From contig JBDRVV010000014.1 of assembly GCA_039802005.1 (NCBI GenBank), positions 1,451-64,415 on the forward strand: a stretch of DNA of 62,965 nt, read 5' to 3'. The position numbers and the translations under genes are program-made. Under the pieces are notes generated by a model. That model did not search any database, was not told the DNA's origin, and saw nothing but the letters and a program-made list of their open reading frames with translations. The stretch comes from a candidate division WOR-3 bacterium (GTDB lineage: Bacteria > Hydrothermota > Tepidihabitantia > SM23-42 > JAOAFX01). Of this stretch, positions 149 to 31,121 are shown one piece after another. Position 1 is the first letter of the stretch, and each line of letters begins with the position of its first letter.

Positions 149-2536
149 TTACTTTATTTTAACCACCCGTGCGGGTGAGCAATTCTTATCCTCAGAGACA
201 ATAAAATAGACACCGGCAGGTAATTCACGACCCAGATTGTCATCGCCGAACCAGATGATACTGGATTCATGATTCAAGATACAGGATTCAAGACTGAAAG
301 ACTTAACAACCCTGCCTGAAACATCATAGATACTTAATAAAATTTCGGATTTCGGATTGCGCAATGCGGATTTGTTTGTAATTTGGGATTTGGGATTTGT
401 TTGGTCATTGGGATTTGGGATTTGGAATTTAATCAAACATTGATTCCTGAAGGGATTCGGATAAACCCACAAACTTTGATAATGATTATCAACCTTTATA
501 TCTCCATCACCTTTATCTTCCTCAATCCAAACGCTTCCACCATTTGTTGTCTTGCGGATCATTCCGCCCCTGCCCACTGCATAAACGACATTTGCATTGA
601 TCGCCTGGATATCCTCATAACCGTGCCAGGTCATAGAATTGATAGCAAACCAGTTTGAACCACCATTCGTTGTCTTCATCATCATATGGTATCCACCCGG
701 TCTGAAAACTGCGTATCCAATAAGATTATCCGCAAAGGATACGCCAACAGCGGGAACAATACCACCCCCCAGGCTTTGTCCTGTCCAGGAATTGCCCCCA
801 TTGGTTGTCTTTATCATTTTATAAGTCCCGGTACCTCCCATTAAACCTGAAATATAACCAACCTGTGAATTTTCTGGAAAATCTATGGCATAGAAATTTG
901 CTGAAGATGGTGCATAGTTTTCAACCCAGATCTGACCACCATTAGTGGTTTTATATACAAGTCCAACTGCACCACCATAAGAAGGTGTGGCACCCGCAAC
1001 TGCATAACCAGTATCCGCATTAAAGAAAAATAAATCCTGGATTGCCCGATAAGTATTATTATTAGGAATGTTTTGACTTATCCAGTTATCACCACCATCC
1101 GTAGACTTCATTATCACTCCACCAGTACTTCCCAGTCCAGCAATGTAACCAATTTGCGAATTTATGAATTTCACTGCATACAGGGTGGCTGTAGTATTTG
1201 AATTTTTTGGAGTCCAGACATTACCACCGTTGGTTGTCTTGAAAAATGTTCCATTAGCACCAACTGCAAAACCGAGTTGATTATCAAGAAAATCAACATC
1301 ATAGAATACCTGCCCGGTTCCTGTTGTTTGCTGTACCCAGGTTGCACCTCCATCAGTTGTCTTGCATATATATCCTGCATCGCCAACCGCATAACCAACC
1401 TGGTCGCTCTCCGGAAAATCAACAGCCCAAAAAATTCCTTCAGGACCTGTATTTAAGAAATTCCAGGATGTGCCCGCATCCGTAGTTTTCAAAAGTTGGC
1501 CATGGCCACCATTCTGGTCATAGACATATCCTGCAGCATAGCCAGTCTGTGTATTGGCAAAACCAATCGGTAAAACATAAGTCATAAATTTCGGAAGAAA
1601 GACTGGAGTCCAGCTACTACCTCCGTTTGTTGTTTTCATAATGAAACTTCCACTCCAGCCCGAATTTGAGTGTGCCCAACCACCGGCATACCCGACCTGG
1701 GCATTCAAAAAATGTACTGAATAAATTTCACGGTATTGTTGATACCATATCTGTTGCCACGTACTACCTCCATTGGTTGTTTTAATAATTGTACCATTGC
1801 CACCACTACCTAATGTATACCCCCCTGCATAACCGTTCTGATTATCAATAAAACACACATCCCAGTAAGTCACATTTGCTGGACTTGTCTGGCTATTCCA
1901 GTTGGAACCACCGTTCGTTGTTTTTAAGATTACCGGGGTTGTAGTTCTATTCCCACCAACAACATATCCAGTATTTGCATCAACGGGAAAATGTACTGCA
2001 AGCAATTCATAGGTTGTGCCAGAATTTTGCTGAACCCAATTTTGCCCACCATTTGTCGTTTTTAATATCATTCCATTTCTCCCTACTGCATATCCGACCT
2101 GATTGTTTCCCTGCGGAAAATCAACATCCATAAGCCAGGTATTCTGTGCGCCAAGATACTGGAATGTCCAGGTTGCACCCTGGTTTGTGGTTTTTAAAAT
2201 TACAGCATGATATGTTGTATTCCAGTTTGAACCCCAGAAATTACCGACTGCATAGCCAGTTAGCGAATCAGGAAAATCAATACCATAAAGTTCATAATAA
2301 CCAGGCTGGGAATCAGGATAAGGTGTGAAACTTACATCCCAGGCCAAGCCACCATTTGTCGTCTTTAAAATGGTTCCTGCCTCTTCTTCAACAACAAAAA
2401 TAATATTTTCGTTGATTACACAGACATCAGTGTATTCATTACCTTCAGGTAATGGATTCTGCCAGGCCCAGGGGAGGTTAGCTGAATGAACAAAAGAAAC
2501 GATTAAGAACATACCAAACCAAATTCCAATTTTCAT
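149..2536 (-). CDS. Secreted YCF48/BNR-repeat protein with C-terminal sorting domain
   Basis: Predicted secreted, cell-surface or extracellular beta-propeller protein of 795 aa; no enzymatic function can be read. About 14 copies of a KTTNGG-x-x-W motif, spaced roughly 45-60 residues, fill the body, as in YCF48/photosystem II assembly-factor-like and BNR repeats. The last ~90 residues form a FlgD-Ig/T9SS type A sorting domain (YPNPF, then IYDVSGRVVKSF, then LPAGVYF). The ATG at 2536 was chosen over an upstream in-frame start at 2605 because GAAAGGGGG precedes it and MKIGIWFGMFLIVSFVHSA is a clean signal peptide. Two low-complexity repeats (about 341-434 and 253-298) are translated in frame inside the sorting domain. 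It is divergent from the regulator at 2682. Confidence 0.88.
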   Translation of the reverse strand: MKIGIWFGMFLIVSFVHSANLPWAWQNPLPEGNEYTDVCVINENIIFVVEEEAGTILKTTNGGLAWDVSFTPYPDSQPGYYELYGIDFPDSLTGYAVGNFWGSNWNTTYHAVILKTTNQGATWTFQYLGAQNTWLMDVDFPQGNNQVGYAVGRNGMILKTTNGGQNWVQQNSGTTYELLAVHFPVDANTGYVVGGNRTTTPVILKTTNGGSNWNSQTSPANVTYWDVCFIDNQNGYAGGYTLGSGGNGTIIKTTNGGSTWQQIWYQQYREIYSVHFLNAQVGYAGGWAHSNSGWSGSFIMKTTNGGSSWTPVFLPKFMTYVLPIGFANTQTGYAAGYVYDQNGGHGQLLKTTDAGTSWNFLNTGPEGIFWAVDFPESDQVGYAVGDAGYICKTTDGGATWVQQTTGTGQVFYDVDFLDNQLGFAVGANGTFFKTTNGGNVWTPKNSNTTATLYAVKFINSQIGYIAGLGSTGGVIMKSTDGGDNWISQNIPNNNTYRAIQDLFFFNADTGYAVAGATPSYGGAVGLVYKTTNGGQIWVENYAPSSANFYAIDFPENSQVGYISGLMGGTGTYKMIKTTNGGNSWTGQSLGGGIVPAVGVSFADNLIGYAVFRPGGYHMMMKTTNGGSNWFAINSMTWHGYEDIQAINANVVYAVGRGGMIRKTTNGGSVWIEEDKGDGDIKVDNHYQSLWVYPNPFRNQCLIKFQIPNPNDQTNPKSQITNKSALRNPKSEILLSIYDVSGRVVKSFSLESCILNHESSIIWFGDDNLGRELPAGVYFIVSEDKNCSPARVVKIK

Positions 2537-5769: not shown

Positions 5770-6897
5770 ATGAAGAGATTGGCTGTAAACTTTTTATTGT
5801 TTATTTTTCCGGTTTTTGCCAATCCCTTGCTTACCGGTGTTATCAATGAATTCCAGACTGATACGCTCCTTGGACAGAAATTTGAATTTCATCCAATAAA
5901 TTACGGCTGGGAAATACCTCTATTGGGAGCCTTGGTTTATACGCCCGGATGTTCAGCCTATGTTGATACCAATATCTCTAATCCGCCTTACGGTTATACG
6001 GTGATTGATAGATCAATTTTGAATGGAACATTCCACCTAAACCAACAAAATGGATATATATATATTTACAAATCAGACTATTTCATGGATGACATTTCCT
6101 ACGCTGATACTTTTCATTCTCCTATTCTTGCACCACCTCCTAACACCTCTGCTTCAAGATTTTTGTTCACCTTGTATTATAATTATCCTACACCTGCAGA
6201 GGATTGGTATATTGATTACACACCAACATTGGGTAGTGAAAATGACGATTATCCAGGATGTGTAATCAGCGGTTATGTATATCTAAATAGTATTCCAATT
6301 GAAAATGCTAGAGTAACTGCCACTGTTTATGATAGCATTATAACCCAGGGACCTTTTTGTAAATGCTGTACTACTTTCACGAACAGCAATGGTTTTTATT
6401 CTTTTGATAGTCTCTGGCCTGTCCGCTACTGGATGACTGCGTCTTTTGGAAATCATCCACCTATAGGTGAATTATCACCTTCCCTTTGTGCTTTATGGGA
6501 AAAACATTTGAATTTCTATTTTGTTGATATAGAAGAACCTGGAGTAGAAACCTTTAACCCATCGGCGTCATTGATAATTTTTCCCAATCCATTCCGGAAC
6601 CACTGCGTGATTAAATTCCAAATTCCAAATCCCAAATCCCAGACAAATCCCAATGGCCAAAATCCAAACAAATCCGCAATCCGAAATCCGAAATCCGAAA
6701 TTTCGTTAATGGTTTATGACGTTGCGGGTCGGGTGGTTAAATCTTTTAATCCTGAATCCTGTATCCTGAATCATGCATCAGGTATCATCTGGGATGGCTG
6801 TGATTTTCTTGGTCGTAGGCTTCCTGCAGGTATTTATTTTGTGCGGTTGGAGGCTGGCGATTATAAGCAGATTGAGAAAGCGGTTCTGTTGAGATAA
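5770..6897 (+). CDS. Secreted protein with carboxypeptidase-regulatory-like fold and sorting domain
   Basis: Exported protein of 375 aa, function unknown. A short signal peptide (MKRLAVNFLLFIFPVFA) is followed by ~150 residues of no recognised family. Residues ~165-235 look like a carboxypeptidase regulatory-like/CNA-B beta sandwich (ISGYVYLNSIPIENARVTA, later NSNGFYSF). The C-terminus is a FlgD-Ig/T9SS type A sorting domain (FPNPFRNHCVIKFQIP, then VYDVAGRVVKSF, then LPAGIYFVRLEAG). Its start is fixed by AGGAGG six bases upstream. In-frame low-complexity repeats occupy two loops of the sorting domain (DNA about 6611-6706 and 6744-6786). It stands alone with its own promoter. Confidence 0.82.
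   Translation: MKRLAVNFLLFIFPVFANPLLTGVINEFQTDTLLGQKFEFHPINYGWEIPLLGALVYTPGCSAYVDTNISNPPYGYTVIDRSILNGTFHLNQQNGYIYIYKSDYFMDDISYADTFHSPILAPPPNTSASRFLFTLYYNYPTPAEDWYIDYTPTLGSENDDYPGCVISGYVYLNSIPIENARVTATVYDSIITQGPFCKCCTTFTNSNGFYSFDSLWPVRYWMTASFGNHPPIGELSPSLCALWEKHLNFYFVDIEEPGVETFNPSASLIIFPNPFRNHCVIKFQIPNPKSQTNPNGQNPNKSAIRNPKSEISLMVYDVAGRVVKSFNPESCILNHASGIIWDGCDFLGRRLPAGIYFVRLEAGDYKQIEKAVLLR
6611..6786 (+). repeat. Two in-frame low-complexity repeats inside the sorting domain
   Basis: At 6611-6706 the DNA repeats AAATTCCAAATCCC and CCGAAAT units, translated as NPKSQTNPNGQNPNKSAIRN. At 6744-6786 it repeats ATCCTGAATCCTG units, translated as NPESCILNHAS. Near-identical blocks lie in the same two loops of the genes ending at 149, 19099 and 26544. 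The first type also occurs at 16025-16060, at 54995-55040 and outside genes at 15433-15480. Confidence 0.85.
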
Positions 6898-14800: not shown

Positions 14801-15435
14801 TGGCTTTAGAGGGAAATTTAGAAGATTTTGAATTAACTGATGTATTTCAATTAATACAATTAGGCGCCAAAGATGGTAGTTTAAGAATTCAGACCCCAAG
14901 CGATGTTGGGGTTGTCTATTTTAAAAACGGTATGGTCGTTCATGCAAAAACCAATAACTTAATAGGTGAACAGGCGATTGACTCAATATTACAGTGGCGT
15001 AAAGGTAGATTTTTATTCAAGCCGGGTGAAGAAACCCTTGAGAAAACTGTGGAGCTGCCGATACAACAAGTCATACTTGATGCAGCAAGACGTATTGATG
15101 AGTTAAATAAAATTCAGCGGTTGATTCCTTCTTTTGATATGGTCCCAAAGATTGTTGAGGTTCCTGATGTAGGGATTGAAAAAATAAATCTCAGGCCTGA
15201 AGAATGGAAGGTTCTGGCATTCGTTGATGGTTCTCTGTCAATCAGGGAAATTTCACAAAGAGTAAAACTTTCTGAATTTGAAACCGGAAGAATCCTTTAT
15301 GGACTGATTTCTTCCGGGCTTGTTAAACTAATTCAAGAAAAATCAGAAGAAAAACAGAAGATAGAACCAACCCCACCCGGTTCAGATGAGGATGATAAAA
15401 AGGGTGGCATTTTTGGAATATTTAAGAAAAAATAA
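14800..15435 (+). CDS. DUF4388 (PATAN-type) domain protein
   Basis: A cytoplasmic 211-aa protein. Residues 1-100 match DUF4388: LEGNLEDFELTDVFQLIQLG, then GSLRI, GVVYFKNGMVVHAKT and GEQAIDSILQWRKGRFLF. This domain is known in signalling proteins of motile and gliding bacteria. Residues ~140-185 look like a small winged-helix-type segment (WKVLAFVDGSLSIREISQRV, SEFETGRILYGLISSGLV). The tail is charged and ends GGIFGIFKKK. It overlaps the accA stop by one base and ends the operon. Role here unknown. Confidence 0.82.
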   Translation: MALEGNLEDFELTDVFQLIQLGAKDGSLRIQTPSDVGVVYFKNGMVVHAKTNNLIGEQAIDSILQWRKGRFLFKPGEETLEKTVELPIQQVILDAARRIDELNKIQRLIPSFDMVPKIVEVPDVGIEKINLRPEEWKVLAFVDGSLSIREISQRVKLSEFETGRILYGLISSGLVKLIQEKSEEKQKIEPTPPGSDEDDKKGGIFGIFKKK

Positions 15436-15469
15436 ATTCCAAGCGCCAAATCCCAAACAACAATTAAAT

Positions 15470-15560
15470 TCCAATAATTCAACAACGGCGCATTAGCAAG
15501 CTAATGCACTCCCTTCTCCGTTTCACTAAAGCTACGATACTCTGTCCAACTTTTTTTACC
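15470..15560. repeat. Dispersed repeat, copy 1
   Basis: Shares CAACAACG, GCATTAGCAAGC-AATGCA, CCGTTYCAC and CTCTGTCCAA in the same order with 18975-19060. The GCATTAG-CAAG-CTAATGC core (15489-15506) is a hairpin. Both copies lie just past the end of a secreted-protein gene on one side. Confidence 0.6.
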
Positions 15561-15835: not shown

Positions 15836-18800
15836 TTATCTCAACAACACCGCCTTCTCAATCTGCTTATAATCTCCAGCCTCCAACCGCACAAAATAAA
15901 CACCGGCAGGCAACTTGCGACCTAAATCATCACGACCATCCCAAACCAACTGGTTAAATGGTTGAATGGTTAAATGGTTAAATTGCTTAACTACCCGACC
16001 CGAAACATCGTATACACTCAATGAGATTTCGGATTTCGGATTTCGAATTTCGAATTTAATCACAAGGTGATCCCTGCAAGGATTCGGGCAAATCTGCAAA
16101 TCTAATTTTACAGGTTGTAGTTTTGAAGTTTTATCTTCAGCGATTCCGTGTAAACAACCAAAAAAATGCATAATTGAATCAAGCAAAACAGCCCTGGTTG
16201 AAGGTGGTGTTCCATCAAAAAGTGCTCCAAGTTCAAAAGAAGTCGCAACTGTACGATAGATTCCCGCATCATAGGCAACCCCGCAATCAAAATAATTATC
16301 TGTGTCTCTAAAGATTAAAAATGAACCGGGATTTAAAGGACTTATATGGTCCATCCATTCATTCTCACCAGCGTAATTAAAATCCATTCCCTGGGTAAAT
16401 GTTCCAGCAATACCTCCGATTGGTCCCATATTTGACCCACCGTCATCAATTGGGTTTAATCCAAATAGATTTGAAAAATCATAGCCACCCATCATCGGAT
16501 CGTAATACCACACATCACCACCTTCCATATACAATCTACCACCAGACAATGCAAAATCAACCAACCTCTGCGCTTCGGCACTACCCGATTGAATAACATA
16601 GTTATTTGGGAATACCCCTAAACAGACAAATACACAATTGTAGAGATTCAAAATTTGAGGTAGATTTGCACTGATTTCACCTGAGTAGCCCAGACTGGTT
16701 AGTATATTGTGCATATTCTGCCCCGGCTGTGGGGTCAAATCAGGATTCCAAATAAAATAATCTTTCTTTCCGATAACGATAGAAAATGATATTGTATCAT
16801 GATAGAATAAAGAATATAATACCATCTGAAATTCTGCGGATGTTCCCGGAAGGGTTAATGAGTCTGCATATACAATGAATGGGTCTAAATCATTTACTGC
16901 TGAAGAATCAATACCAATATGCGGATAACTTCCAGTTGAATCAGTAATGACCGTATAATTTGAAAGGCCTTGCAATATTGCATACACACTATCAATTGGT
17001 GAATGTCCCGTATTTTTTATCTTTACCTTGACAAATACGGTCTCACCCGGTTCCAGATTAGAATTGCCATTTCCACCACTGATTAAAATTTCAAGGAGAG
17101 TCAATTCCGGAGCAAAAACCGGATGGTTGAAATGCGAAATCCATATCGAATCATTCATATCTTTACAGATCAAATCAAAAGTTATATTGTGTAGGTCAGG
17201 ACAATTTGTGGCTATAGAAAAAACATATCCACTATCACCCGTATAAGATGAATCTCTGCCCTGAATTTCACCAAACCATTTTATTGAATCAAAAATCGTT
17301 GTATATATATCGTTCGTCCTCAATAATCCAAAAACATTATGGGCTGTGCTGTCTCCCCAGTTTTTTATCCACAATGGTAAATTAATCATTTCCCCCGGAT
17401 TAATAAGATTATTGTTATTACCGTATAATGAATCATCAATAACGGATTTCAAATATACTACATAAGGTATTTCTGAGTTTTGAACAGTCATATAACCTTC
17501 ATACGGTTTTAAGTTTTTCCCTGTTACCGTGACATAAATTGTATCTTGAACAATCAATGGATTTATTGAAAAGTAAGCCTGACCATTAATGTCCGTTGTA
17601 TCAAGGACATAGACCCCGGAATCCTGTTTTGCCATTACACAAACAAAGGCATTACTTATTGGTGATAAATCCACTGCTTTATTGACTGCTACTGTAAAGT
17701 TTGCACTACCATAAGGAATCATTTGCGGATGTATTACCAGAAGTGAGCAGGGCGGTGCAGTCCAGATACCCATCTCCGGGTCGCCGATTGTAGTGAACCC
17801 AACATATTCCTCATCACCCCCGGAATATGGATACATAGTATAAACCCTTACTCTGCCGCCCTCACACGCTTCGCCAAAAGTCCTTTTCCCATCAAAAAAT
17901 ACTGCATCAAAAAAGCCGCGCGATACCGCGCTCCTCAAGAATGTAATAAACCCGCCACCGACTGTAGTTGTAGCAAACAAACCAGCGCCGCCTCTCAAAT
18001 TTGTGGGTGAACCGGTGAGAAACCATCTCTCTACCTGGGCAGGTGTCGAACCGGTGCCAATGGTTCTACAAGTAATTGAAAGAACGATAGGTAATTTTGT
18101 GCCATTTGTGGTCAGATCTGGGTTACAATCAAAAGGTGGATACCATTGTCCAAGGCCTGTTCCACGATAAAGCAAAAATCCCCTGCCACTATTTATTGAT
18201 TGATATACACTGTAGGCATTATTACCAAGACCAGCGGACAGGGTATCAATCAAATCATAGCCATTAGAAAGCATTAGATTCTTTGCTTGACGAACATCAT
18301 TCCAATAGACTGTATCATTACCGATTGGTGGATAATAACCATTGTCTTCATTGGCAATAAGACATGCCCGCTTGAACCAGAAGGTATCTGCAGTATTCGG
18401 GTAACGCTCATAAGCAATAATCTTTTGAACAACGGTCTGAACTTCGGTTGTATTATGGACAGTCAACCTTCCTGAGAGAATTTCATTATATAAATTGTCA
18501 TCCATGTTAGTATAATAATTATCTGAATTCCAACCAAGTACAAGAGGAAAGGGTATATAATTGGGGGCACCAACAAAAAGAATGTACTCAGGTTTTACAA
18601 TCCAGTTATTATAAGCATTAACAATATAATCCCTTATCTGGGGCGCAGTTGAGCCAATTTCAGATAATCTTACAACCTTTGTGCGCATTCCTTTCTTATG
18701 TTTCCACTGCGCAAGTGGTAGAATATCATTATAAAAATTATCATGGGTGATTATTAAATATCGCGCACCAATCTCCTGACAATATCCTGTAATAACAAAA

Positions 18801-19098: not shown

Positions 19099-21732
19099 CT
19101 ATCTCAATAAAACAGCTTTTTCGTTCTGCTTAAAATCTCCCGCCTCCAGCCGCACAAAATAAATACCCGCAGGAAGCCTACGACCAAGAAAATCACAGCC
19201 ATCCCAGATGATACCTGATGAATGATTCAGGATACAGGATTCAGGATTAAAAGATTTAACTACCCGCCCAGAAACATCATAAATCTTTAGCGAAATTTCG
19301 GATTGCGAACTGCGGAATGCGGAATTGTTTGGGATTTGGAATTTAATCATGCAATGATTCCGGAATGGATTCGGCATTAATACGATATTTAGATTTTCTG
19401 GTCTCAATGACAAACCATCTTTCTCTTCAATACCAACCGTCGGTGGCCAGGTCGTAAACTTTAAGGCAAACTGAGAAGTAATTGGAACGCCCCACTGGTG
19501 ATATGTCCCATCAAGGTAGTACTGAATACCGACATTCCGCGCATAATTTTGTATACCTATAGTATTATCTGTCTGCTGCATTGAATTCATATACTGGACT
19601 ATTATCTCACCATCCCCTGTTGGCGTCGGATAATAAGCGGGGTCATACAAAATTATCTCAAATGTCTCCAAAGTCGTATTGGCACCATAATGGGGAACCC
19701 TAAACCATTCCACCACAAACCGATGATTTGCCGCATCATTATAATAATAAACATCGCCTGGCGCACCACTAACCCCAGGATCCAAATCATCCCATAAACC
19801 TGCAATACAAGTTCGTGGTGCATTTGTACTCGGCAAACCATAATTCGTTGCATAACTGGATGTTGCTGAATCCAAAGTTACAAATCCGTTTGATGATATT
19901 GAAATACGATTGTAATTCAGACCATAGTATTTAAAGGTAAAAGGCAACCCCACACGTCTCACCTGGTCATCGCTCAGATTTAACGATGTTCCAGGATTCT
20001 GAGTTTGTGTCGTATCTATCGCAAACCAGTTATATACCGGTGCCTGCTGATATGGGCAACCTGACCAGTAAACATAGTAATAACCGGTATCAGTGGGCAT
20101 TGGACGACCAACGGTTAAACTGAAATTCCTTGTCCAGGATGTTTCAGCACAAACTATATACAGTTGAAAGTCAACAGTATGACCAATAGGACAGGTTGAT
20201 GAGACAGAAACACGGAATGGATCCGAAGAATTATTTGCGGAATCACCCGCAGGTATCGTACCGTATGTTGTGGTTGAATCGATTAGTATAATATAATCAT
20301 CATTCTCACGCAAGCGTGCCGTTGTATTCGTCGCCTGCACACCACCTGCATTTCTGACATAGCATACAATCCCAGCATTCTCACCAGGATCAAGCCTACC
20401 ATTATTATTATTATCTTCCACAACTGCGGTACGATTGAGTAAAACATTTGGACGGTTAGATTCATAAGGTTTTATCAAAACACAAAGCGCAGCGACCTCG
20501 GCTTTTATAACTTCTGTAGCAAAGGCGTTATTATTATATCCTGCACCAATTGTGTCATGTGTTGTATGATAATGAGGATTTGTAGGCCAGTAATCTTCTA
20601 TATTACATAAACCATGATAACCGTTGTCATAAAAAGGTTGAATATCAGACGGAATTGACGATACAGTCTGCTTAATGGTGAGCAAATTCGTATAGGTATC
20701 AGCACAGGCGATAAAGAAATCTGCAAACGGGGTATTGGCACTGTTGGTTAAGACATTACAATCTTCAGGTGAAGCATCAACATACCCGATCATATCGCCA
20801 TTTAGAACACCAAGTATACTATCACCCTGCTGCCGGGCATTGTTTGCATAATATGTGCTTCCATAAAGTCCTTGCTCTTCACCGCTGAAGGCAATAAATC
20901 TTGCTGAATATTCAAATTGGTAGTTTCTCATTACCCTTGCTGCCTCAAGCGCGGCCACAGTGCCACTTGCATTATCATCCGCACCCGGTGCTATGCTCGG
21001 CGCCTGATTAGATGTCGCATCAAAATGTCCATCAATTATCGCATAAATATTGGGGTATAAAATTCCTCTTTTTATTCCGATCACATTTGGAGCATACCCA
21101 GAAGTATGATATTGAAAATAAACCGAATCACATCCATATTCCAGAAATTTATTCCTTATCCAGTTAGCAGCAGCAAAACAGGAGTCATGGGTTGAATACC
21201 TGGTTCTGAAATTTTGCAATCTCCTTACAAAACTTAAAATCGTATCTGGATTAACGCTGTTCACAATTTGTTGTATCGTTGGATTACTACGCACTTCTGG
21301 AAAAGTCATTGCATTAGTCTTTATTATTGGTTTAAACGATAACCGCACTATCTCAACCGGTTCTCGGTTTAAAAGCAAAAGTGCGTCAGTCTTTAATTTT
21401 AACAAAAAAACATTATTATCTTTTGTCAATAAATCTCCATATTTATCAAGTTCAACAGGCTTGTTAAACTGATAAAGTAAGTAGTAATCTCCTTCCTGTG
21501 GGCTCTTAGAAAGAATCTGATAATCAAAATCTCTTAGTTTTGTAAATTCTTTATCATCAATTATTGCAATTGCACAATTATCCAATTCTTTTATTATATC
21601 AATTTCTTTTTCAAAAAGTGGTGTAAGCCTTCCCCCTCCCAGTTCAATCCTCACCAGATTGCTTTCTGCATTCGCTAAAGTAAATAGAGCAAAAAAAGAA
21701 AAAAATATCAACACAACTCTAATACCCTTCAT
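19099..21732 (-). CDS. Secreted M28-family zinc peptidase with sorting domain
   Basis: Predicted exported aminopeptidase of 877 aa. Signal peptide MKGIRVVLIFFSFFALFTLANA. The M28 catalytic core spans ~155-410 with all expected zinc ligands and catalytic residues in order: His236 (IIDGHFDAT), Asp in GADDNASGT (~252), Glu285/286 in AFSGEEQGLYGS, Asp313 in LNGDMIGY and His389 in HYHTTHDT. A CARDB-like Ig segment (~425-530) and a beta-rich domain (~545-780; contains RVGLPFTFKYYGLNYNRISI) follow. The C-terminal sorting domain carries both in-frame repeats (DNA ~19292-19347 and 19209-19251). AAGGAAG precedes the ATG. It sits in a same-strand run of secreted peptidases. Confidence 0.9.
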   Translation of the reverse strand: MKGIRVVLIFFSFFALFTLANAESNLVRIELGGGRLTPLFEKEIDIIKELDNCAIAIIDDKEFTKLRDFDYQILSKSPQEGDYYLLYQFNKPVELDKYGDLLTKDNNVFLLKLKTDALLLLNREPVEIVRLSFKPIIKTNAMTFPEVRSNPTIQQIVNSVNPDTILSFVRRLQNFRTRYSTHDSCFAAANWIRNKFLEYGCDSVYFQYHTSGYAPNVIGIKRGILYPNIYAIIDGHFDATSNQAPSIAPGADDNASGTVAALEAARVMRNYQFEYSARFIAFSGEEQGLYGSTYYANNARQQGDSILGVLNGDMIGYVDASPEDCNVLTNSANTPFADFFIACADTYTNLLTIKQTVSSIPSDIQPFYDNGYHGLCNIEDYWPTNPHYHTTHDTIGAGYNNNAFATEVIKAEVAALCVLIKPYESNRPNVLLNRTAVVEDNNNNGRLDPGENAGIVCYVRNAGGVQATNTTARLRENDDYIILIDSTTTYGTIPAGDSANNSSDPFRVSVSSTCPIGHTVDFQLYIVCAETSWTRNFSLTVGRPMPTDTGYYYVYWSGCPYQQAPVYNWFAIDTTQTQNPGTSLNLSDDQVRRVGLPFTFKYYGLNYNRISISSNGFVTLDSATSSYATNYGLPSTNAPRTCIAGLWDDLDPGVSGAPGDVYYYNDAANHRFVVEWFRVPHYGANTTLETFEIILYDPAYYPTPTGDGEIIVQYMNSMQQTDNTIGIQNYARNVGIQYYLDGTYHQWGVPITSQFALKFTTWPPTVGIEEKDGLSLRPENLNIVLMPNPFRNHCMIKFQIPNNSAFRSSQSEISLKIYDVSGRVVKSFNPESCILNHSSGIIWDGCDFLGRRLPAGIYFVRLEAGDFKQNEKAVLLR

Positions 21733-21823: not shown

Positions 21824-24800
21824 TTATTTCAGTAGTACCGTCTTCTTTGTATCAACGAAGTTATCAGAACTCATCTGGTAGAAATATATTCCTGCAGATA
21901 GTTTTCTTCCTGCATCATCCTTTCCATCCCAGATTATGGAATAGAAGCCGGGCTCTTTTTCAACATCAACAAGCGTTCGCACAACCTGTCCGAGACAATT
22001 GTATATCTTCAAGGTCACTCTACCAGCCTTCGGAATTGCATAATTAATACGAACCATTCCCTTTGTCGGATTGGGCATCGGGTTTGATAAATTGTAGATC
22101 AATGGTGAAAGATTAGCCTCTTCTATACCTACATTGGGACGAATATCGCCGTTAATGAGTGTAAATGTCCTGTAATACCAGGCACCCCAGTTTTGTGCAC
22201 GGAATGTTGCATTGTCACGGCCACGGACAAATAGTGAACAAACACGGTCAACGCCAGGAGTATATAATAGTCTGATTGAACCGATGACATCCTCAACAAT
22301 TTCATCCCAGGCACCATCAACGACCTGCATTGGCACTTCACCACTGGAATTTCCGCTTGGACTTTTAACAATATAACTTGCCGCACCAATTGTGCTCAAC
22401 CCGGTTTCAGAATCGCTGACCACGGCAGTGAATGTTAATAGTGTATCAGTGGCAGTCACAAATTTCGGATTGTTTGCAACGACTATTGAATTCGGAATAA
22501 CCTTTGGTCCAAGGTCATCATTGCCTGCAATATTAATACGGAAATTACCGGTCTCAGCAAAGCCCTTCATAGAAGGATAGACATTTTTATCATTTACGGT
22601 CACACGGACGCGGTATTTGGTGCCGTTCTGTAAGGCAGAAATATTCCAGGAATAAGGTGATGTAAGATTGGTTCCTGAAGTGATGAGATACCAGGTTGAA
22701 CCACCATCCGGTGAATATTCAATCCAGGTGGTATCAATCTGGGCACCACCATAAGCAGTGGCAGTCCAGGCGATTGAGATCGGGCTTGATGTATAAGTCT
22801 GTCCTCCCACTGGTGAAGATATAGTAACATCCGGGTGATCATGACCTATTAGCCAAATGAACATATTATTGAGAATATCAGTTCTCGTTGTGCTATTAGG
22901 ATTGGTAGTATCAATTTGAGTAATTTCAAAGCAGTTAGTTACAACCCTTGTACGCTGACCACCCCATACACCATCACCCGGCGTTCCCATATTATTAGTA
23001 GATTCCCATTTGATACCGCAAGAATCATTTGCTACGTTACCGTGCCAGACATAGGTTCCAGTACCTGACGCTCCGGTGCCCGACAGTCTAATTGAATCAC
23101 CAGCCGCGCCCTGACGGAAAGGCTGGTAGACAACACCGCCAGTATAATTACCCGATATCGGATCACCCGCTATACCCCGCAATGAAGTCCATGAAGTCGC
23201 AGTAATATCACCTATGTACCGAAAATGCAGATAATCCTTAGCAAATAGCGTATCAACCCGGCTGTACTGCCATGTATCCCAGCCAATATCATGACCAGTC
23301 ATTGCAAATCTTGCACCACCATTATGGTAGGTTTTTATTGTTTCTTTCTGAGCAACAGTCCAAACCGGATAATTTTCCTGCCCAACCTGGAAATATACTG
23401 CCTTAAACCACTTGAGATTATCCCGTCTGTACTGTCCCTGGTCTTTTGTTGACCACCAGTTGTATGTCCAACCACCAGCATTTAGGGCATTCTTCATAAA
23501 ATCAGGATGAGCAAATTCAGTTCCCTGGAGATTATTGTTAAGAAGAACAACGAGCACATCAATTCCTGCCTGTGCCTTGGTCTTGAATGTATAATGTGCT
23601 CCACCATTGTTATCACGAACTGCATTACCCCTGAAATCTTTGGATTCAACATCATAATAATAAATTGTATTCGGTGTCAAACCAGTAAGTTTTACCCGAT
23701 GCGGCATACAATATGGTGTGTCAACCTGCGCAACAAGGTTAAGATTGCTCGGGTTTGTTCCATAATAAATCTTTGAATTTGCACCTTCATTCGTTGTCCA
23801 GCAAACATCTACTGAAGTGGCATCAATATTTTCACAATGGACATTAGAGATCGTGAAATACCAGGCATCTACTGCTGCCCAGGTCGTAGAAATATAAGAA
23901 GGATTGTTATCGGTATAAGAAACATAAATCGTATCACCCTGGCAGACCGATAACCTGCCATCACCATGTACTGCTCCACGGAAAAGCAAAGGCATTTCAC
24001 CTTTGAATACATAGGCACTCTCAGCAAGTTCAACACACTTTAATGTCTCAGGTTGTGTCTCAATATATTTTCCTGTCAAAACAACACGAACTGTATCACG
24101 AATACCAACGGCCCCATAATTCGGGTCTTCAACCCTTACCCTTACAGTATCAATGATAAAATCATTAGCACGATAAGCAGGTTTATCTGTAGAAACAACC
24201 CCAGCAACAGTCGCTGCCGAGTAGGTGATTACCAGTGCATAAGGTTGTGGACCATATGGAACATTCCTGCCTTCTATCCGTACAAGCCAATCTCCCGCGG
24301 TCGGCGAATCTATTCTTGCACACTCCTCCACATTCAAAGAATCTCTTCCTGCCGGATTCGCTACCGAATAGCCACCCGAATATTGATTACCACGATAATA
24401 AGTAGAGCCTATCTGGACATACAAATCAAGGTCATTGACAATTTGTTTGTTGGCGGCAGGATTACCCGGATAATCAGTCCAGACAACTGTTATCTTCAAA
24501 TTCGTTGCGCCCGAAGGGACATTAAAACGATAATCCTTTCTCTCGCCAGTCAGGACACCAATTGTATCATCAAGCAATAATGTTTTTCGGGTATCACCGG
24601 CAAAATATAGTGTGGAATCAAGGTCAACCCGACCCCAACCCACATTGTTATCCGGAACCGTATAACCAGTGATATTTGGATCTGCACAATTAATCAAGAT
24701 TGCCTTTATCATTGCCGCACTGATATAAGACCAGGCATTTCCGGCGACCTTTTTACCGGTAGGATACCAACCCTCTCTTAAGTATTGTCTAACCAGTGCA

Positions 24801-26407
24801 CCTGCACCACATGCTCCAGGCGAAGCCATACTCGTTCCAGACATACCTGAAAAGCCCGTGGTTCCAGTTGTAGCGGACGATATACTTACCCCCGGTGTGA
24901 GAATCGTTGGCTTTATCCTGTTGTCATCAGTTGGACCACGGCTTGTCGTTGTGTAATATGTCCGACAGGATGTGCTGTTATATGTTCCACCAACTGACAC
25001 ACAGTTTTTTGCTGCCGCAGGGGAACCCACAGTATTGACGCCACCTGCATTACCATTGGAGAAAAACAACAAGAAGTCTTTATGCGACCACATAAACTGG
25101 TCAACATTGAGACACATACTTGTATATGCACCGCCTGCGTCTGCCCCCCAGGAGTTCGTACTCAAATAAGCCCTGATACCATGGCTCGCATAATACTTGT
25201 TATAAGGTCTTATGTAAAGGTCGTTTAGGTCACCAAATGTGTAAATGGAACTGCTCGTATTATCGCCGCAGTCATTGTGGTATAACCGAGCCATTTTCGC
25301 AATACCATCCCGATAATCAGTTCCCAATGTAGTATCATTGCCCGCAGTCGTGCACCCGGTATGGGTTCCATGGTATGAAGCACCCGAGCCATCACCAAAT
25401 ACTATCTGGGCAGGTGCGCCCGAATCATAGGCAACGATCTTATTATGGGTTGGATATACACCCCAGGTCGTGATCTGGGCACTACCAGCACGATGCATAT
25501 AGTGCTGTGTATTAATCCCAGAGTCACAGTGGTTTATTATTTCACCCTGACCATAAATACCCATTGCCCACATACGACGATAGGTATTGTCATTTCCACC
25601 CGGCGCTGTTGCAAGATATCCGCACTGGACGACCCACTGATATTGCTGGTTGTGCATTACCGGCTGGATATAAGGTTCAATCCAGTAAACCTCTTTTATG
25701 TTTGCAAGCCTGTTGATATCAGTCTTATTAATCACACACCAGACCATTTTATTAATGCCATTATCAGAAGTCACAACCTCATTATTTTTTGCGATTGCCT
25801 TTATCTGTTCCACAGTAGAATTCATATCTGCATCATTGAATAAGAGTATCGTAACCTTATGCTCAGTACCAACCCGGTCAAAAAGAGTTGAGAGCTTATA
25901 TGCAGGTTGGTAGATACCCATCCAGTTCACAGCGGGATTTGCAAGTATTGCATTCTGTGGTGTTTTGCCTTTTATTGAAACGACAAAGCCGTAATTTGGA
26001 ATATAAAAATGAATCTTTGCACCCTGTGACTCAAGCCAATCTTTTTCTGGACCATAGATCGGCCCTGAAAATTGAACAATGTAGTATCCAGTTTCATCAT
26101 CCCGATACTGCGTCTTCAAATCAACTGGTAAATCAGGCTCACCATTCTTGCCAAGGGTTTTTGTATCAAAAGAAATTCCGTTTGAAAAGGCAATCTTTGT
26201 TGCATCACCATAAGCAACAGGAATAAATTGGGAGCTTACCTTACTGGAGAATGTTGGGATTATGTCTGAACGCTGGACATCCCCTTCCACACTCTCCTTT
26301 TGCAATTCTATTTTTGCCGTTTGGACGGGCATTTGCACCTGAGTTACCGATTTGGTTGCACCCAGGGCAAATATTGCAATAATCATCAATAGCATTATTT
26401 TTTTCAT
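21824..26407 (-). CDS. Secreted subtilisin-like (S8) serine peptidase, multidomain, sorting domain
   Basis: Exported subtilase of 1527 aa. A signal peptide (KKIMLLMIIAIFALGA) is followed by a ~240-aa prodomain that is paralogous to the one in the S8 gene ending at 31179 (NWMGIYQPAYKLSTLF). The catalytic triad is complete: Asp295 (NHCDSGINTQH), His346 (YHGTHTGCT), Ser526 (SGTSMASPGA). A P-domain/PPC-like sandwich (~600-720), an FN3-like domain (~850-940), a ThuA-like Rossmann segment (~945-1180; IDVLVVLLNNNLQG) and further Ig-like domains follow. The sorting domain (MPNPTKGMVRINYAIP) lacks repeat insertions. The ATG at 26407 is preferred to GTG 26413 because GGAG sits 5 nt before it and overlaps the GTG. 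A putative 23-aa leader ORF ends 2 nt upstream. Confidence 0.9.
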   Translation of the reverse strand: MKKIMLLMIIAIFALGATKSVTQVQMPVQTAKIELQKESVEGDVQRSDIIPTFSSKVSSQFIPVAYGDATKIAFSNGISFDTKTLGKNGEPDLPVDLKTQYRDDETGYYIVQFSGPIYGPEKDWLESQGAKIHFYIPNYGFVVSIKGKTPQNAILANPAVNWMGIYQPAYKLSTLFDRVGTEHKVTILLFNDADMNSTVEQIKAIAKNNEVVTSDNGINKMVWCVINKTDINRLANIKEVYWIEPYIQPVMHNQQYQWVVQCGYLATAPGGNDNTYRRMWAMGIYGQGEIINHCDSGINTQHYMHRAGSAQITTWGVYPTHNKIVAYDSGAPAQIVFGDGSGASYHGTHTGCTTAGNDTTLGTDYRDGIAKMARLYHNDCGDNTSSSIYTFGDLNDLYIRPYNKYYASHGIRAYLSTNSWGADAGGAYTSMCLNVDQFMWSHKDFLLFFSNGNAGGVNTVGSPAAAKNCVSVGGTYNSTSCRTYYTTTSRGPTDDNRIKPTILTPGVSISSATTGTTGFSGMSGTSMASPGACGAGALVRQYLREGWYPTGKKVAGNAWSYISAAMIKAILINCADPNITGYTVPDNNVGWGRVDLDSTLYFAGDTRKTLLLDDTIGVLTGERKDYRFNVPSGATNLKITVVWTDYPGNPAANKQIVNDLDLYVQIGSTYYRGNQYSGGYSVANPAGRDSLNVEECARIDSPTAGDWLVRIEGRNVPYGPQPYALVITYSAATVAGVVSTDKPAYRANDFIIDTVRVRVEDPNYGAVGIRDTVRVVLTGKYIETQPETLKCVELAESAYVFKGEMPLLFRGAVHGDGRLSVCQGDTIYVSYTDNNPSYISTTWAAVDAWYFTISNVHCENIDATSVDVCWTTNEGANSKIYYGTNPSNLNLVAQVDTPYCMPHRVKLTGLTPNTIYYYDVESKDFRGNAVRDNNGGAHYTFKTKAQAGIDVLVVLLNNNLQGTEFAHPDFMKNALNAGGWTYNWWSTKDQGQYRRDNLKWFKAVYFQVGQENYPVWTVAQKETIKTYHNGGARFAMTGHDIGWDTWQYSRVDTLFAKDYLHFRYIGDITATSWTSLRGIAGDPISGNYTGGVVYQPFRQGAAGDSIRLSGTGASGTGTYVWHGNVANDSCGIKWESTNNMGTPGDGVWGGQRTRVVTNCFEITQIDTTNPNSTTRTDILNNMFIWLIGHDHPDVTISSPVGGQTYTSSPISIAWTATAYGGAQIDTTWIEYSPDGGSTWYLITSGTNLTSPYSWNISALQNGTKYRVRVTVNDKNVYPSMKGFAETGNFRINIAGNDDLGPKVIPNSIVVANNPKFVTATDTLLTFTAVVSDSETGLSTIGAASYIVKSPSGNSSGEVPMQVVDGAWDEIVEDVIGSIRLLYTPGVDRVCSLFVRGRDNATFRAQNWGAWYYRTFTLINGDIRPNVGIEEANLSPLIYNLSNPMPNPTKGMVRINYAIPKAGRVTLKIYNCLGQVVRTLVDVEKEPGFYSIIWDGKDDAGRKLSAGIYFYQMSSDNFVDTKKTVLLK

Positions 26408-26409
26408 CT

Positions 26410-26481
26410 TCACTCCTTTCTATAGTTATTCAAAAGTTGACCATATGTCTTGTTTTTTTCCCTATCATCACCTCCTTTCAT
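26410..26481 (-). CDS. Putative 23-aa leader ORF before the S8 peptidase
   Basis: ATG at 26481, TGA at 26412-26410; product begins MKGGDDREKNK and ends NNYRKE. The ATG lies about 3 nt from the predicted transcript start, so it would be read without a leader. The stop overlaps the Shine-Dalgarno region of the main gene and leaves 2 nt to its ATG, a layout that permits translational coupling. Codons 2-6 contain the 13-nt GAAAGGAGGTGAT, a full match to the canonical complement of the 16S 3' end. It may be only a structured 5' UTR; nothing in the peptide is recognisable. Confidence 0.3.
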   Translation of the reverse strand: MKGGDDREKNKTYGQLLNNYRKE

Positions 26482-26543: not shown

Positions 26544-29500
26544 TTATTTCAAAAGAACTGTCTTTCTCACTTCTTTGAAGTCCGATGCTTCAAGTTTAAC
26601 AAAATAAACACCGGCAGGCAATCTACGACCTAAATCATCACAACCATCCCAGATGATACCTGATGCATGATTCAGGATACAGAATTCAGGATTAAAAGAT
26701 TTAACCACCCGACCCGTTACATCATAAACCATTAACGAAATTTCGGATTTCGGATTGCGAATTGCGGAATTGTTGGGGATTCGGGATTTGGAATTTGTTT
26801 GGAATTCGGTATTTGGAATTTGGAATTTAATCACAAGGTGATTCCGGAACGGATTTGGCGATATACCGAAGTAAAATCCATTATTATTCTTTTTTGAGAT
26901 TGCATCTTTTACGCCCGCCCAATAATGAGACCTATACCATCCTGAATTGTATGGATCATAGCGGAACTTAGGCCAATCATAAGAACTTCCATTCAAATCA
27001 AATACCCAGAATTTGAAATCATTCGCTCCAACCATCAGTTCAAGTCTTCCATCATTGTCAATATCATAAACTGCTGGCGACTGTTCAATCCTTATTCCAA
27101 AGTGTATAGGAAACCCACTCATGAGTTGAGCCTTGTTATTAAAAGCGTATAAATTCCAATCCGCAGCACCACACAAGATATCCATAACCTCATCTCCATC
27201 TATGTCAGCTGCAATCGGCAATTTGAAATCATGCCCGTATGATGTGGGAAATCTCGGAATCATATTACCCAGCGAATCAAGAACTGATAAGAACAGTGAA
27301 CCCTGATTGCTACCAACAATTATCTCAGGCCTTTCATTTCCAGTAATATCTGCCAAAACTGGATATGCCTCAACATCTCCAAGCGATGGGATATCTTTCT
27401 GCCACAATAAATGACCGCTGGCATCAACAAGGTTAACCATATCCGTAGAATCTGTGTAAAAACATATCTCAAGGTCTGCATCACCACTCACATTTCCCAA
27501 AACCGGTGAATAAACCATCTTCTTTGCTACCGCAATTGGAAAAGGATTTAGATAATTGCCGTAACGATCCCACACAAATAAAGAATCAGAATTTATTCCC
27601 CCGCAGACGACTATCTCAAGATTTCCATCATTATTTAAATCACCGACTGCAGGAGAACCCGCATGCCAGCCATACAAATTTTTTAGCAACCCATCAGGTG
27701 AATATACCCCGGTTCCATCGTGATGGAATGCATATAATTTACCATCTTCAGTTATAACAAAAATTTCAAGGTCTCCATCATCATCAATATCAGCAAGTGC
27801 TGGCGAGCCGAGAATGCCGCCACCTAATGTCTTGGGCCATCCTACCAGAGGCGTCCAGGTTGTATCAACTTTTGTTAAAATATAAAAATTATCCCACCAT
27901 CGTCTTATTCCAAAACAAACTTCTAATGTTCCATTATCATCAACATCACCAACTGCTGGTGAAGACCAGATCTCAGCGCCACAGGTAAAAATTCTTCCAT
28001 AAATGTCACTGTTCACTGGTGTTCCATCACTATGCCACATATATACATCCCCATTTCTTGAACAGACGACAATTTCCAAACCGGGATAAGATGGGTCAAG
28101 GTCCCCGAAATTTGGTGAAGAAAAGAGATAACCGAATACAGTCCTTGGCCAACCCTGGGCAACTATAGGATTAACCCTTGCCTTGATCGTATCTGATGAC
28201 AAGCCCTCGTTCAGTGAAGTATCAACCGCAACAATGTAATAATAATAATCTCTATTTTTTTCAACATTTAGATCTTCAAAATATGCAGCAGGCAATAATG
28301 GATTTTTAATAAACTCAAAATTATTATTGGGAACCGTTGAGCGATATATCCTATACCCCTTCGCATTCATTACCATAGTCCAATTAAGGATTATTGAATT
28401 CTGCGTTCCGTATGACCATAGTGAATCAATCCGTGAGGGAGAGCCAAGTGTGACCTTTTTTTCCTGAACTTTAAGATTTTTAGTATATAAAGAGAATTTA
28501 TAAGAAACATTCCCGGGATATACTTTTAAAACTTTTAAAGTATCATTTGCGGATACGATTTCATTGGGCCTAACATCATCAAATTGCACAATACTATCAA
28601 TGACTGTAATCGTATCTGAAAGGCTCGTAATTTTTGCATAGACTGACTCGGCAATACAATGTCCATTGTTTTCAACAAAAGGCACGATTTTATATACACT
28701 TCCATTTGTAGTGAATTTCTGCGTAAAAAGTGTTAACACAGGAGATTCAACAACAAACTGACAGGTATCATAAATCACTTCTGAATTAAAATTGATATCC
28801 ATATAAAGCAATGGTCCATAACCATCTGGTGTTGCCGGATTAATATCAATTATAAAAGGCGTTAAATTTTCTTTAAATTCTCCTGGTGGAATACCTACAA
28901 AATGAGCAGTATCACATAAAATATCAATAAAACTGTCTGAACTATAGATCTTTAAAAATACTGAATCCGATATCTGATTACCATTGTTTACCATACTTAG
29001 ATACAGTGCAATTCTCTCACCCGGATTCGGAATTCCATTATTGTTGCCCATTGTATCAATCATTCTGAGGTGGTGATAAACAACATACGGTGCATCAGGT
29101 TTAACAAATACTGAATCTATATACGGTATAATATTTTCACTAATTATTGTGTACTTTAGATATCCAGGCGATTTTGTCCTTACCGGTGTTTCTGATATAC
29201 CAACGAATCCAGAATCTTTTAAAAATATTTCATTTTCTTTGTAAAGAATAACTTTAAACTTATCTACGGGTGGGAATATTCTTAACGCGATTGTATCATC
29301 ACCAATCTGAAGTGTATCCTTAATTGCTATAACGGAATCTATGTTATGGGGAACACTTGACCACAATTTGACTGTAGGGTCACCAAGTAGATTCAATGAA
29401 TACTGAAAAACTCTGTGCCAGTTGTCAAACTGAGAATAAGGTATCCATGGAATTTTAGAAAAACCGAGGGCAGAACCCAATGAGGTTGAAAATAGTAATG

Positions 29501-31121
29501 GGAATAATGTTCTGACATAATCAAGATGATTATACGCCGCACTGGAACTCGTCGGACCGATATAGCCAATGCCACCGCCCTGTGGATTCATAACCCAATG
29601 CTCGCCAATACAATCTTCCTGAAAAGGACCTGTATAACAAGAAATGACCACAAGCAGGGGATAAATATTATTTGTTAATGAATCAAAAGAAAAATTCGTC
29701 ACATATTCACGCGGGCTTGTTCGCACTCGCAACATATTCACATCCCCGTGAGAAAGCCAGGTAACTAAATTGTACCCATCGTTCATTCCATCCAAAACCT
29801 TCTGTTTAGGTTCTTCGTTAAAATAATACTTATTGAAATAAATAGGAAGGAGAGGACTTAACTGATTTCTTGCAAGATAATAAGAATCATTCTGAGACCA
29901 GAACATACTCGTAACAAATAACGCCTTTTTGTAATATGGCTCAAGCGAATTTGGGGGATTTACTCGTTCAAATAAATAGGCAACTATCTTATTCAAATAT
30001 GCGTGGACATTTTCAGCATTGTGTGCAGGAATTCTTCCCACAAAAACATCTGGATATAAATCAATTGAATCAGCAACTTCACCGAATCGGTCATCGCCAT
30101 CAAAATTCCAATTTCCATCAAGGTCTGAAAAATAAAGGTCCGTGGTTACATTAGCAGGGTAATTTCCCATCACATACTCTACCCACACCCAGCGTGTGGG
30201 GATTTCTGGAACATCATTCCCTAAAATAACAATACTCACACCCCATTTTTCAACTGCATCTTTTATGAAATTTCTCAGTTTTTCCGCGTCGTCAATTCCC
30301 TGATAATGCTGTTTAATCCAGGACATTGTTTTTATTGCCGTATTCAACCCAAGCAATCTTTTGTAACGGGCAAATTTTTCATAAGCAGAAATCATTGAAT
30401 CGGTGGTGATTATCAGGAGGTCAACTGGAGGTCCTAAAAGTGAAGGTAGTTCAGATGGGATTAAATCCTCTACATTCTCCTCAATATGAAAGTCTGGAGT
30501 ATTAGAAAGTATTGAGGCATTTGATTGTTTTACTACTGAAAAAACAAATTCATCAAAAATTGATTTTGAAAATATTGTCTGACGAATCGGTTTTATACCA
30601 GTTTTTTGATTTCCAGTTTTGATATCCAGTTCTAACTTCTTTAAAACTTCAAGTTTTTTTAATACTGGGTTATATCTAAACGGCGCAATCAATATCTGCC
30701 CAATACTATAACCCCTCAAGTTTCCAGAATGAAAACCAAGTATTAAATTATTCGGATAAAATTCATTTCTGTTATAAATTTCAAAGTCTGGTTTAGTAAA
30801 TTCTATTGGTTCTCCAATGATTGCACTTTTCTGGGCTGGATAAATATAAAATTCTCCAGAAATTTCTGACCATTCTATATTGCTCACATTTACTGCTATT
30901 ATTTTTTCATCTGGAGAAAACAGAAATGTATAAATAAATCCCGGAATTTCTGGTGTACCCGGCTTACCAAAATTTCCCCCATCCTCAAGAAAAATTCTCT
31001 GGTATCCATCAAAATTCGTTATTTCATACTTAAGTTTATCAACAGGAATATTTATATGGAAAGAAAAACAAAAACTCAAAACGAGGCAAATGCTTGCGAA
31101 TAATCTCATTTTACTAAACAT
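26544..31121 (-). CDS. C25-family cysteine peptidase with VCBS/FG-GAP propeller and sorting domain
   Basis: Secreted gingipain-like peptidase of 1525 aa. Signal peptide MFSKMRLFASICLVLSFCFS, then a C25 propeptide-like region (~25-220). The catalytic fold spans ~230-590: DLLIITTDSMISAYEKFARY, VSIVILGNDVPEIPTRW, GDDRFGEVADSIDLYPDVFVGR, His458 in LSHGDVNM and Cys495 in VVISCYTG. Both dyad residues are present, so it looks active. Ig/CARDB-like domains and an FN3-like domain (~950-1045) follow. A beta-propeller of FG-GAP/VCBS repeats (VGDVDDNGTLEVCFG, ADIDDDGDLEIF, GDLNNDGNLEIVV) covers ~1060-1420. The sorting domain carries the longest in-frame repeat (DNA ~26736-26830) and the second loop repeat (~26651-26696). 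AAAGG lies 5 nt before ATG. Confidence 0.9.
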   Translation of the reverse strand: MFSKMRLFASICLVLSFCFSFHINIPVDKLKYEITNFDGYQRIFLEDGGNFGKPGTPEIPGFIYTFLFSPDEKIIAVNVSNIEWSEISGEFYIYPAQKSAIIGEPIEFTKPDFEIYNRNEFYPNNLILGFHSGNLRGYSIGQILIAPFRYNPVLKKLEVLKKLELDIKTGNQKTGIKPIRQTIFSKSIFDEFVFSVVKQSNASILSNTPDFHIEENVEDLIPSELPSLLGPPVDLLIITTDSMISAYEKFARYKRLLGLNTAIKTMSWIKQHYQGIDDAEKLRNFIKDAVEKWGVSIVILGNDVPEIPTRWVWVEYVMGNYPANVTTDLYFSDLDGNWNFDGDDRFGEVADSIDLYPDVFVGRIPAHNAENVHAYLNKIVAYLFERVNPPNSLEPYYKKALFVTSMFWSQNDSYYLARNQLSPLLPIYFNKYYFNEEPKQKVLDGMNDGYNLVTWLSHGDVNMLRVRTSPREYVTNFSFDSLTNNIYPLLVVISCYTGPFQEDCIGEHWVMNPQGGGIGYIGPTSSSAAYNHLDYVRTLFPLLFSTSLGSALGFSKIPWIPYSQFDNWHRVFQYSLNLLGDPTVKLWSSVPHNIDSVIAIKDTLQIGDDTIALRIFPPVDKFKVILYKENEIFLKDSGFVGISETPVRTKSPGYLKYTIISENIIPYIDSVFVKPDAPYVVYHHLRMIDTMGNNNGIPNPGERIALYLSMVNNGNQISDSVFLKIYSSDSFIDILCDTAHFVGIPPGEFKENLTPFIIDINPATPDGYGPLLYMDINFNSEVIYDTCQFVVESPVLTLFTQKFTTNGSVYKIVPFVENNGHCIAESVYAKITSLSDTITVIDSIVQFDDVRPNEIVSANDTLKVLKVYPGNVSYKFSLYTKNLKVQEKKVTLGSPSRIDSLWSYGTQNSIILNWTMVMNAKGYRIYRSTVPNNNFEFIKNPLLPAAYFEDLNVEKNRDYYYYIVAVDTSLNEGLSSDTIKARVNPIVAQGWPRTVFGYLFSSPNFGDLDPSYPGLEIVVCSRNGDVYMWHSDGTPVNSDIYGRIFTCGAEIWSSPAVGDVDDNGTLEVCFGIRRWWDNFYILTKVDTTWTPLVGWPKTLGGGILGSPALADIDDDGDLEIFVITEDGKLYAFHHDGTGVYSPDGLLKNLYGWHAGSPAVGDLNNDGNLEIVVCGGINSDSLFVWDRYGNYLNPFPIAVAKKMVYSPVLGNVSGDADLEICFYTDSTDMVNLVDASGHLLWQKDIPSLGDVEAYPVLADITGNERPEIIVGSNQGSLFLSVLDSLGNMIPRFPTSYGHDFKLPIAADIDGDEVMDILCGAADWNLYAFNNKAQLMSGFPIHFGIRIEQSPAVYDIDNDGRLELMVGANDFKFWVFDLNGSSYDWPKFRYDPYNSGWYRSHYWAGVKDAISKKNNNGFYFGISPNPFRNHLVIKFQIPNTEFQTNSKSRIPNNSAIRNPKSEISLMVYDVTGRVVKSFNPEFCILNHASGIIWDGCDDLGRRLPAGVYFVKLEASDFKEVRKTVLLK

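Follow-up and report, generated by a model that had tools for sequence, protein, structure and literature searches.

In two flexible loops of the type A sorting domains of a candidate division WOR-3 bacterium, the C-terminal tags that direct proteins to type IX secretion, blocks of DNA are written in heptanucleotide repeats and translated in frame, and comparison with related genomes indicates that these loops and the adjoining domain ends are exchanged between genes, the remainder of each protein being retained. Growth of heptads and capture of repeats in tolerant loops, followed by exchange of blocks or domains between paralogs by recombination, probably account for the distribution. The pattern appears to be neither that of simple gene duplication nor that of one mobile repeat.

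The analysed stretch of 62,965 nucleotides (hereafter the window) belongs to contig C14 of a draft genome of 2.54 Mb (G000). The closest named relatives of one of its proteins are encoded in the WOR-3 chromosomes CP070686.1 and CP070802.1 (47-49% identity). A TIGR04183 profile search of G000 returns 142 places at E<=1, most of them above the cut-off, and the genome is predicted to encode about 140 T9SS type A sorting domains. Eight genes of the window carry such a domain at the C-terminus; among their bodies are peptidases of the C25 and S8 types, one of the M28 type, and beta-propeller proteins. Genes 5770, 15836, 19099, 21824, and 31179 (named by their lower coordinate) pass the TIGR04183 cut-off, genes 149 and 26544 pass it once neighbouring pieces of the frame are included, and gene 7271 scores 19.9 as a protein against a cut-off of 23, and 23.3 in the genome-wide profile search. 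By this profile, the window domains are assigned to the T9SS type A sorting domains (TIGR04183 / PF18962), with export and surface anchoring predicted. The close relatives used for comparison (G001, G002, and G003) are all drafts of 84-96% completeness.

Period-7 blocks in two loops of the sorting domain

The first-pass annotation had located translated repeat blocks in both loops of the genes ending at 149, 19099, and 26544 and of the gene at 5770, and had described the domains ending at 21824, 31179, and 8812 as free of both. Blocks and repeat-free domains are found at these places, and the observation as a whole is confirmed; the gene ending at 15836, which has repeats in both loops and is thereby a fifth carrier, had been overlooked. 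The features of the window are as follows.

257..295, minus strand: loop-2 ATCCTGA-type heptad block, gene 149-2605
341..430, minus strand: loop-1 AAATTCC/AAATCCC/AAATCCG block, C-terminal sorting domain of gene 149-2605
6613..6705, plus strand: loop-1 heptad block, gene 5770-6897, peptide KFQIPNPKSQTNPNGQNPNKSAIRNPKSEIS, modelled as disordered between two strands
6748..6786, plus strand: loop-2 ATCCTGA-type block, gene 5770-6897, its first 33 bases being those of two genes on contig C3
8537..8812, plus strand: repeat-free control sorting domain, gene 7271-8812
15434..15472, plus strand: intergenic copy of the dispersed AAGCACCAAATCCCAAACAAAT element
15951..15982, minus strand: loop-2 period-8 TTTAACCA block, gene 15836-18838
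16026..16057, minus strand: loop-1 block of AAATTCG/AAATCCG x4, gene 15836-18838
19210..19248, minus strand: loop-2 ATCCTGA-type block, gene 19099-21732
19291..19344, minus strand: loop-1 block, gene 19099-21732
21824..22078, minus strand: repeat-free control sorting domain, gene 21824-26413
26655..26693, minus strand: loop-2 ATCCTGA-type block, gene 26544-31121
26736..26828, minus strand: loop-1 block, gene 26544-31121, G001 and G003 orthologs being without such a block
31179..31439, minus strand: repeat-free control sorting domain, gene 31179-34655
54995..55033, plus strand: AAATCCC array, the opposite strand of which codes for the start of gene 54317-55072, hydrophobic and resembling a signal peptide (GFGIWDLGF)

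The blocks are written in period-7 DNA and are not due to chance. Among the 125 sorting domains of G000 with a findable core motif, periodicity at lag 7 (at least 18 of 24 matches at a lag) is present in loop 1 of 18 domains and in loop 2 of 12, the expectation from codon shuffling being 0-0.03. No loop of these 125 domains is periodic at lags 3-6 and 9-13, and none of their C-terminal tails shows periodicity; lag 8 is found in four loop-2 regions, and lag 14, a multiple of the heptad, also gives a signal. The degenerate pattern AAATYCSAAATYCS has 64 matches in G000 versus a single one for the reversed control. The tandem unit is exactly 7 bp, with the exception of the period-8 TTTAACCA.

Several unrelated repeats occupy the same two loops. 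In G000, loop 1 contains AAATCCC/AAATTCC/AAATCCG heptads, GAT heptads (DIRYTIHDTGL), or the hairpin GTAGGGCAAGGCTTCAGCCTTGC (VGQGFSLA), and loop 2 contains ATCCTGA heptads, CGGTNAA heptads, or TTTAACCA octads. The corresponding loops of G003 hold other heptads (ACTATGC, CTACCTA) together with hairpins of the CCCCCTTT..AAAGGGGG type, and those of G002 hold two tandem GTAGGGCAAGG copies (GTAGGGCAAGG..CCTTGC repeat). The hairpin-type repeats of G003 and G002 are also intergenic in their own genomes, and the AAATCCC/AAATCCG family and the hairpins of G000 are likewise dispersed between genes. The ATCCTGA family has 43 overlapping matches in about a dozen sorting domains, and outside them it has two sites, one next to a domain on C23 and the other elsewhere on C1; this block is essentially specific to sorting domains and not a genome-wide mobile repeat. 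Arrays of TTTAACCA lie at four places outside sorting domains. The carriers belong to one sub-family of sorting domains (PNPFRNHCVIKFQIP...YDVSGRVVKSFN).

The earlier reading of these blocks is supported in part. The two loops are struck repeatedly and the sorting signal remains intact, as had been proposed. The statement that insertions always keep frame mostly reflects survivorship, with stops in some related domain matches elsewhere (G000 C7:86846 and G001 C32:18378). The term landing pads is appropriate for tolerance but not for special targets: the same repeats also occur in the linker preceding the domain, at the N-termini of proteins, and within a giant protein, and most of them are intergenic (base-by-base reading covered about 400 kb of G000, picked for repeats and sorting domains, and the coding and intergenic counts apply to this selection and not genome-wide).

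In the structure model of the gene-5770 sorting domain (110 residues, mean pLDDT 78), seven strands are present. Loop 1 is located between strands 13-19 and 46-51, with residues 25-39 at pLDDT below 50, and strands 57-61 and 72-76 enclose loop 2. T9SS NucA and RemA C-terminal domains, PorZ, and PorU are among the best Foldseek matches of the model, none of which falls below an E-value of 0.001. On inspection of the sequences, the ends of the loop-1 block, KFQIP and SEISL, coincide with strands that follow [IV]x[FY]x[IL]P and EI[SA]L in domains free of inserts, so the peptide encoded by the heptads also provides parts of strands. The two loops are best read as hypervariable, tolerant sites exposed on the surface of T9SS type A sorting domains.

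Further repeats lie close to the domains or inside other frames. Heptads occupy a third site, the linker immediately preceding the sorting domain, with AAATCCG/GCAATCC units (NSQSAIRNPKLEVYPNP; L034 5409-5460, 8515-8560, and 13315-13367; L058 745-797). An approximately 80-residue stretch of an ORF of more than 2,900 aa (L043 5061-14000, minus strand) resembles an in-frame mosaic of intergenic-type repeats, with a repeat at 10132-10145. Period-10 CCCTTCTTCA arrays are located at 15555-15598 and 15793-15837, directly downstream of gene 15836-18838 on the minus strand, and the second extends to the stop codon of this gene. In L058 (G000 C2:13989) and L162 (G002 C104), the loop-1 and loop-2 blocks of the same gene are near reverse complements (GAT versus ATC heptads). 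Possible fold-back pairing of the two loops is clear in two genes only.

Loop and domain-end exchange among genes

Orthologs were found via upstream protein segments. Pairs with 84-95% identical bodies bear different loops, including different repeat families in the same loop, and protein bodies and loops evidently evolve apart. C2:48091 and its G001 ortholog share 95.3% DNA identity over 2,158 bp, and the match stops at the loop-1 repeat. By segment, their identity is 98% before the loop, 63% in the core, 46% in loop 2, and 67% in the tail; loop and core boundaries are set by motif and approximate, and the segments termed pre and loop1 are mis-cut where a repeat contains PNP, so it is from core, loop 2, and tail that conclusions are drawn. 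Within the window, positions 19420-26421 align unbroken with G001 (77%). At either end the alignment halts before it reaches a sorting domain (that of gene 19099 at one end, that of gene 26544 at the other), and it restarts at 26916, beyond the sorting domain of gene 26544. The tail of gene 19099 is 90% identical to that of gene 5770 of the same genome, and only 61% to that of its own ortholog. In other ortholog pairs (C22:42451 and C22:44856), the loops are kept intact.

An assembly artefact as the sole cause is unlikely, because gene 26544 is syntenic on both sides of the changed domain and AAATCCC-type elements are present in two chromosome records; genes 19099 and 26544 both lie in a stretch syntenic with G001. 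As a counterpoint, every close genome is a draft, and repeats may lead to misjoins in draft assemblies.

Paralogs display a similar mosaic. Among 15 domains with a 33-base loop 2, ten pairs combine loops at least 96% identical with tails at most 75% identical, only six genes being involved. Loop-2 blocks identical at 33/33 bases sit in genes with tails 59-72% alike (e.g., genes 5770 and C3:64106, with tails 59% and cores 80% identical), and tails 84-89% alike accompany unrelated loops in C14:17304 versus C50:7336, C7:84936, and C2:48091. Irregular interruptions are exactly common to the loop-2 blocks of several genes, which argues for copying and against parallel slippage; simple slippage in place is rejected for loop 2. 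Loops and domain ends are exchanged between genes, as these comparisons show. Part of the spread consists of whole loop-to-tail segments exchanged between paralogous domains and not of insertion into an empty loop, and landing pads, as worded, are not supported in this respect.

Simple duplication of genes or domains, whereby an ancestral domain with both blocks would have been copied many times and then diverged in the ordinary way, is unlikely. The confinement of carriers to one sub-family agrees with it, as do the identical blocks retained by some orthologs (C22:42451 versus L161a). Identities of loop 2 and core also correlate (Mantel 0.50 for the ATC set and 0.41 for all 25), which suggests that some of the resemblance comes from longer segments having descended together. 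Similarity of the bodies is, however, uncorrelated with that of the tails (Mantel 0.03), and blocks and flanks differ in their nearest neighbours; the first-pass annotation had named a single history of block and flank as the outcome that would leave duplication as the explanation. The exchange breakpoints, seen in draft assemblies, largely refute duplication, and in its pure form it is rejected, loops being replaced between orthologs.

Growth, capture, and orientation of the repeats

Change in copy number by whole units has taken place at the N-terminus of a hydrogenase-type large subunit (L041 3208-4428). Four AAATCCG units are present in G000 (MSELNPKSEIRNP) and a comparable array in G001; G002 has a single unit and G003 none, and G002 is exactly 21 bp, i.e., three heptads, shorter than G000 and G001. 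Copies of the AAATCCC type in sorting domains have the C-rich strand coding in 16/16 cases and yield hydrophilic peptides of the NPKSQI type; outside sorting domains, both orientations occur. In gene 54317-55072 (minus strand), it is the G-rich strand that codes, giving the signal-peptide-like start FIGICLGFGIWDLGFTQ where a signal peptide would be, and the G001 and G002 orthologs have unrelated N-termini at the position of the array. A pure AAATCCC array would, by sequence reasoning, encode the same peptide in all three frames with no stops and should therefore be unusually easy to tolerate. A pure ATCCTGA array would yield TGA stops, and the actual copies deviate from the unit at such positions.

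Among the intergenic AAATCCC copies are long imperfect palindromes (L043, L046, L049, L089), with hairpin arms in some of them (L089, L049, L046). Several copies are missing from the equivalent spacer in a sister species: the distance between aligned flanks is 209 bases with and 33 without the copy in L054, 142 and 36 in L036, 131 and 19 in L086, and 192 and 9 in L043. Inspection of these empty sites by eye revealed no evident target-site duplication. Dispersed AAATCCC-type elements are present in the chromosome records CP070802.1 and CP070686.1, and no blocks were found in sorting domains in the stretches examined from the two. A curated RNA family for the repeats is ruled out by Rfam at the gathering threshold, which gave only tRNAs in the window and six loci.

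A mobile repeat resembling a MITE, comparable to the Rickettsia palindromic elements (RPE) and transposing in frame into loops, is quite improbable. The AAATCCC family is indeed small and dispersed, with copies both between genes and in frame within them, its intergenic hairpins differ in presence between species, and the AAGCACCAAATCCCAAACAAAT core of intergenic copies recurs in sorting domains on C7 and C44 (mismatches: 0 and 1). The loop copies nevertheless consist of one C-rich arm only and lack the full palindrome, no transposase was identified in a search that was not systematic, and hardly any ATCCTGA or CGGTNAA blocks are intergenic. One mobile element for both loops is rejected, ATCCTGA being confined to sorting domains.

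According to the preferred reading, tandem heptad arrays would grow from native seeds by slippage or tandem duplication, dispersed hairpin-type repeats would be captured from intergenic DNA, and selection would retain only stop-free net changes divisible by three. Within loops, only the hydrophilic-peptide orientation of the AAATCCC family would survive. Homologous or homeologous recombination would then copy single loop blocks, or the segment from loop to C-terminus, between paralogs, with breakpoints in or near repeats; copying between paralogs is suggested because about 140 paralogous sorting domains exist and the sub-family has blocks in common. The orientation filter and the exchange are evident from the compared sequences, and the recombination machinery is presumed. 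Slippage, seen at one non-sorting gene, probably acts in the loops as well, where the repeats are presumably neutral. Intergenic capture does not explain ATCCTGA, which is almost without copies outside sorting domains, and this counts against the preferred reading.

Alternatively, the loops might be a dedicated diversification device, i.e., a selected contingency mechanism whose arrays are kept for fast recombination and change of surface-exposed loops; the same repeats at sites devoid of such a role (N-termini, spacers) make this very doubtful, and neutral tolerance accounts for the pattern, even though several unrelated heptad families share the two loops in several species of two genera and loops turn over faster than protein bodies. 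A standing diversification scheme, in which loop heptads would be maintained as a shared substrate for recombination and slippage that re-shuffles secretion tags among about 140 cargo genes, is likewise improbable; reverse-complement copies of one heptad family in the two loops of some genes would, on this reading, hint at fold-back templating.

Relation to known systems

The nearest precedent for in-frame dispersed repeats is RPE (Ogata 2000/2005, as reviewed in PMC10969869 and PMC2229807). RPEs are, like the WOR-3 repeats, small, dispersed, and hairpin-forming, found both between genes and in frame at tolerated positions of proteins; they are 105-150 bp long, encode a conserved peptide, and reside in unrelated genes. 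The WOR-3 repeats, in contrast, are heptads of several unrelated families, occupy two loops of one domain family, are exchanged between paralogs, and have loop copies without the full palindrome.

Heptameric simple repeats are known from Xanthomonas (GGGAATC) and Nostoc (GGGGATT/GGGGACT; PMC4692102), and the same paper cites heptanucleotide repeats of Calothrix. AAATCCC/GGGATTT is of the same type, with period 7, a G-rich and a C-rich strand, and a dispersed, mostly intergenic distribution near gene ends. The Xanthomonas and Nostoc heptamers are reported to be under-represented on the coding strand inside genes (PMC4692102), whereas those of WOR-3 are in frame in an extracellular domain and swapped between orthologs. 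A surface-protein system with 25-residue tandem protein repeats shares coding repeat DNA and intragenomic shuffling but, unlike WOR-3, has no heptads and lies outside the secretion-signal domain. Domain rearrangement and allelic exchange are described for surface proteins of Porphyromonas gingivalis in PMC5266723; recombination there also affects proteins exported by the type IX system, but concerns surface virulence factors of one species, while in this uncultured phylum it is the sorting domain, with its repeat loops, that undergoes exchange. A search of open-access papers found no report of period-7 repeats in sorting-domain loops, and none for WOR-3.

Repeats translated in frame have been described in Rickettsia and a handful of further groups, chiefly in the form of scattered insertions. 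In this WOR-3 genome, a single domain family, for which sister genomes serve as controls, provides numerous parallel examples in which capture of repeats, in-frame growth of units, and exchange between paralogs are distinguishable. The mechanism by which period-7 repeats spread in bacteria is largely unstudied, and the WOR-3 case makes the question testable. Part of an export signal can apparently be rewritten by simple repeats while the recognisable signal is kept, which is also a warning that sorting domains are unfit for inferring the ancestry of their cargo proteins.
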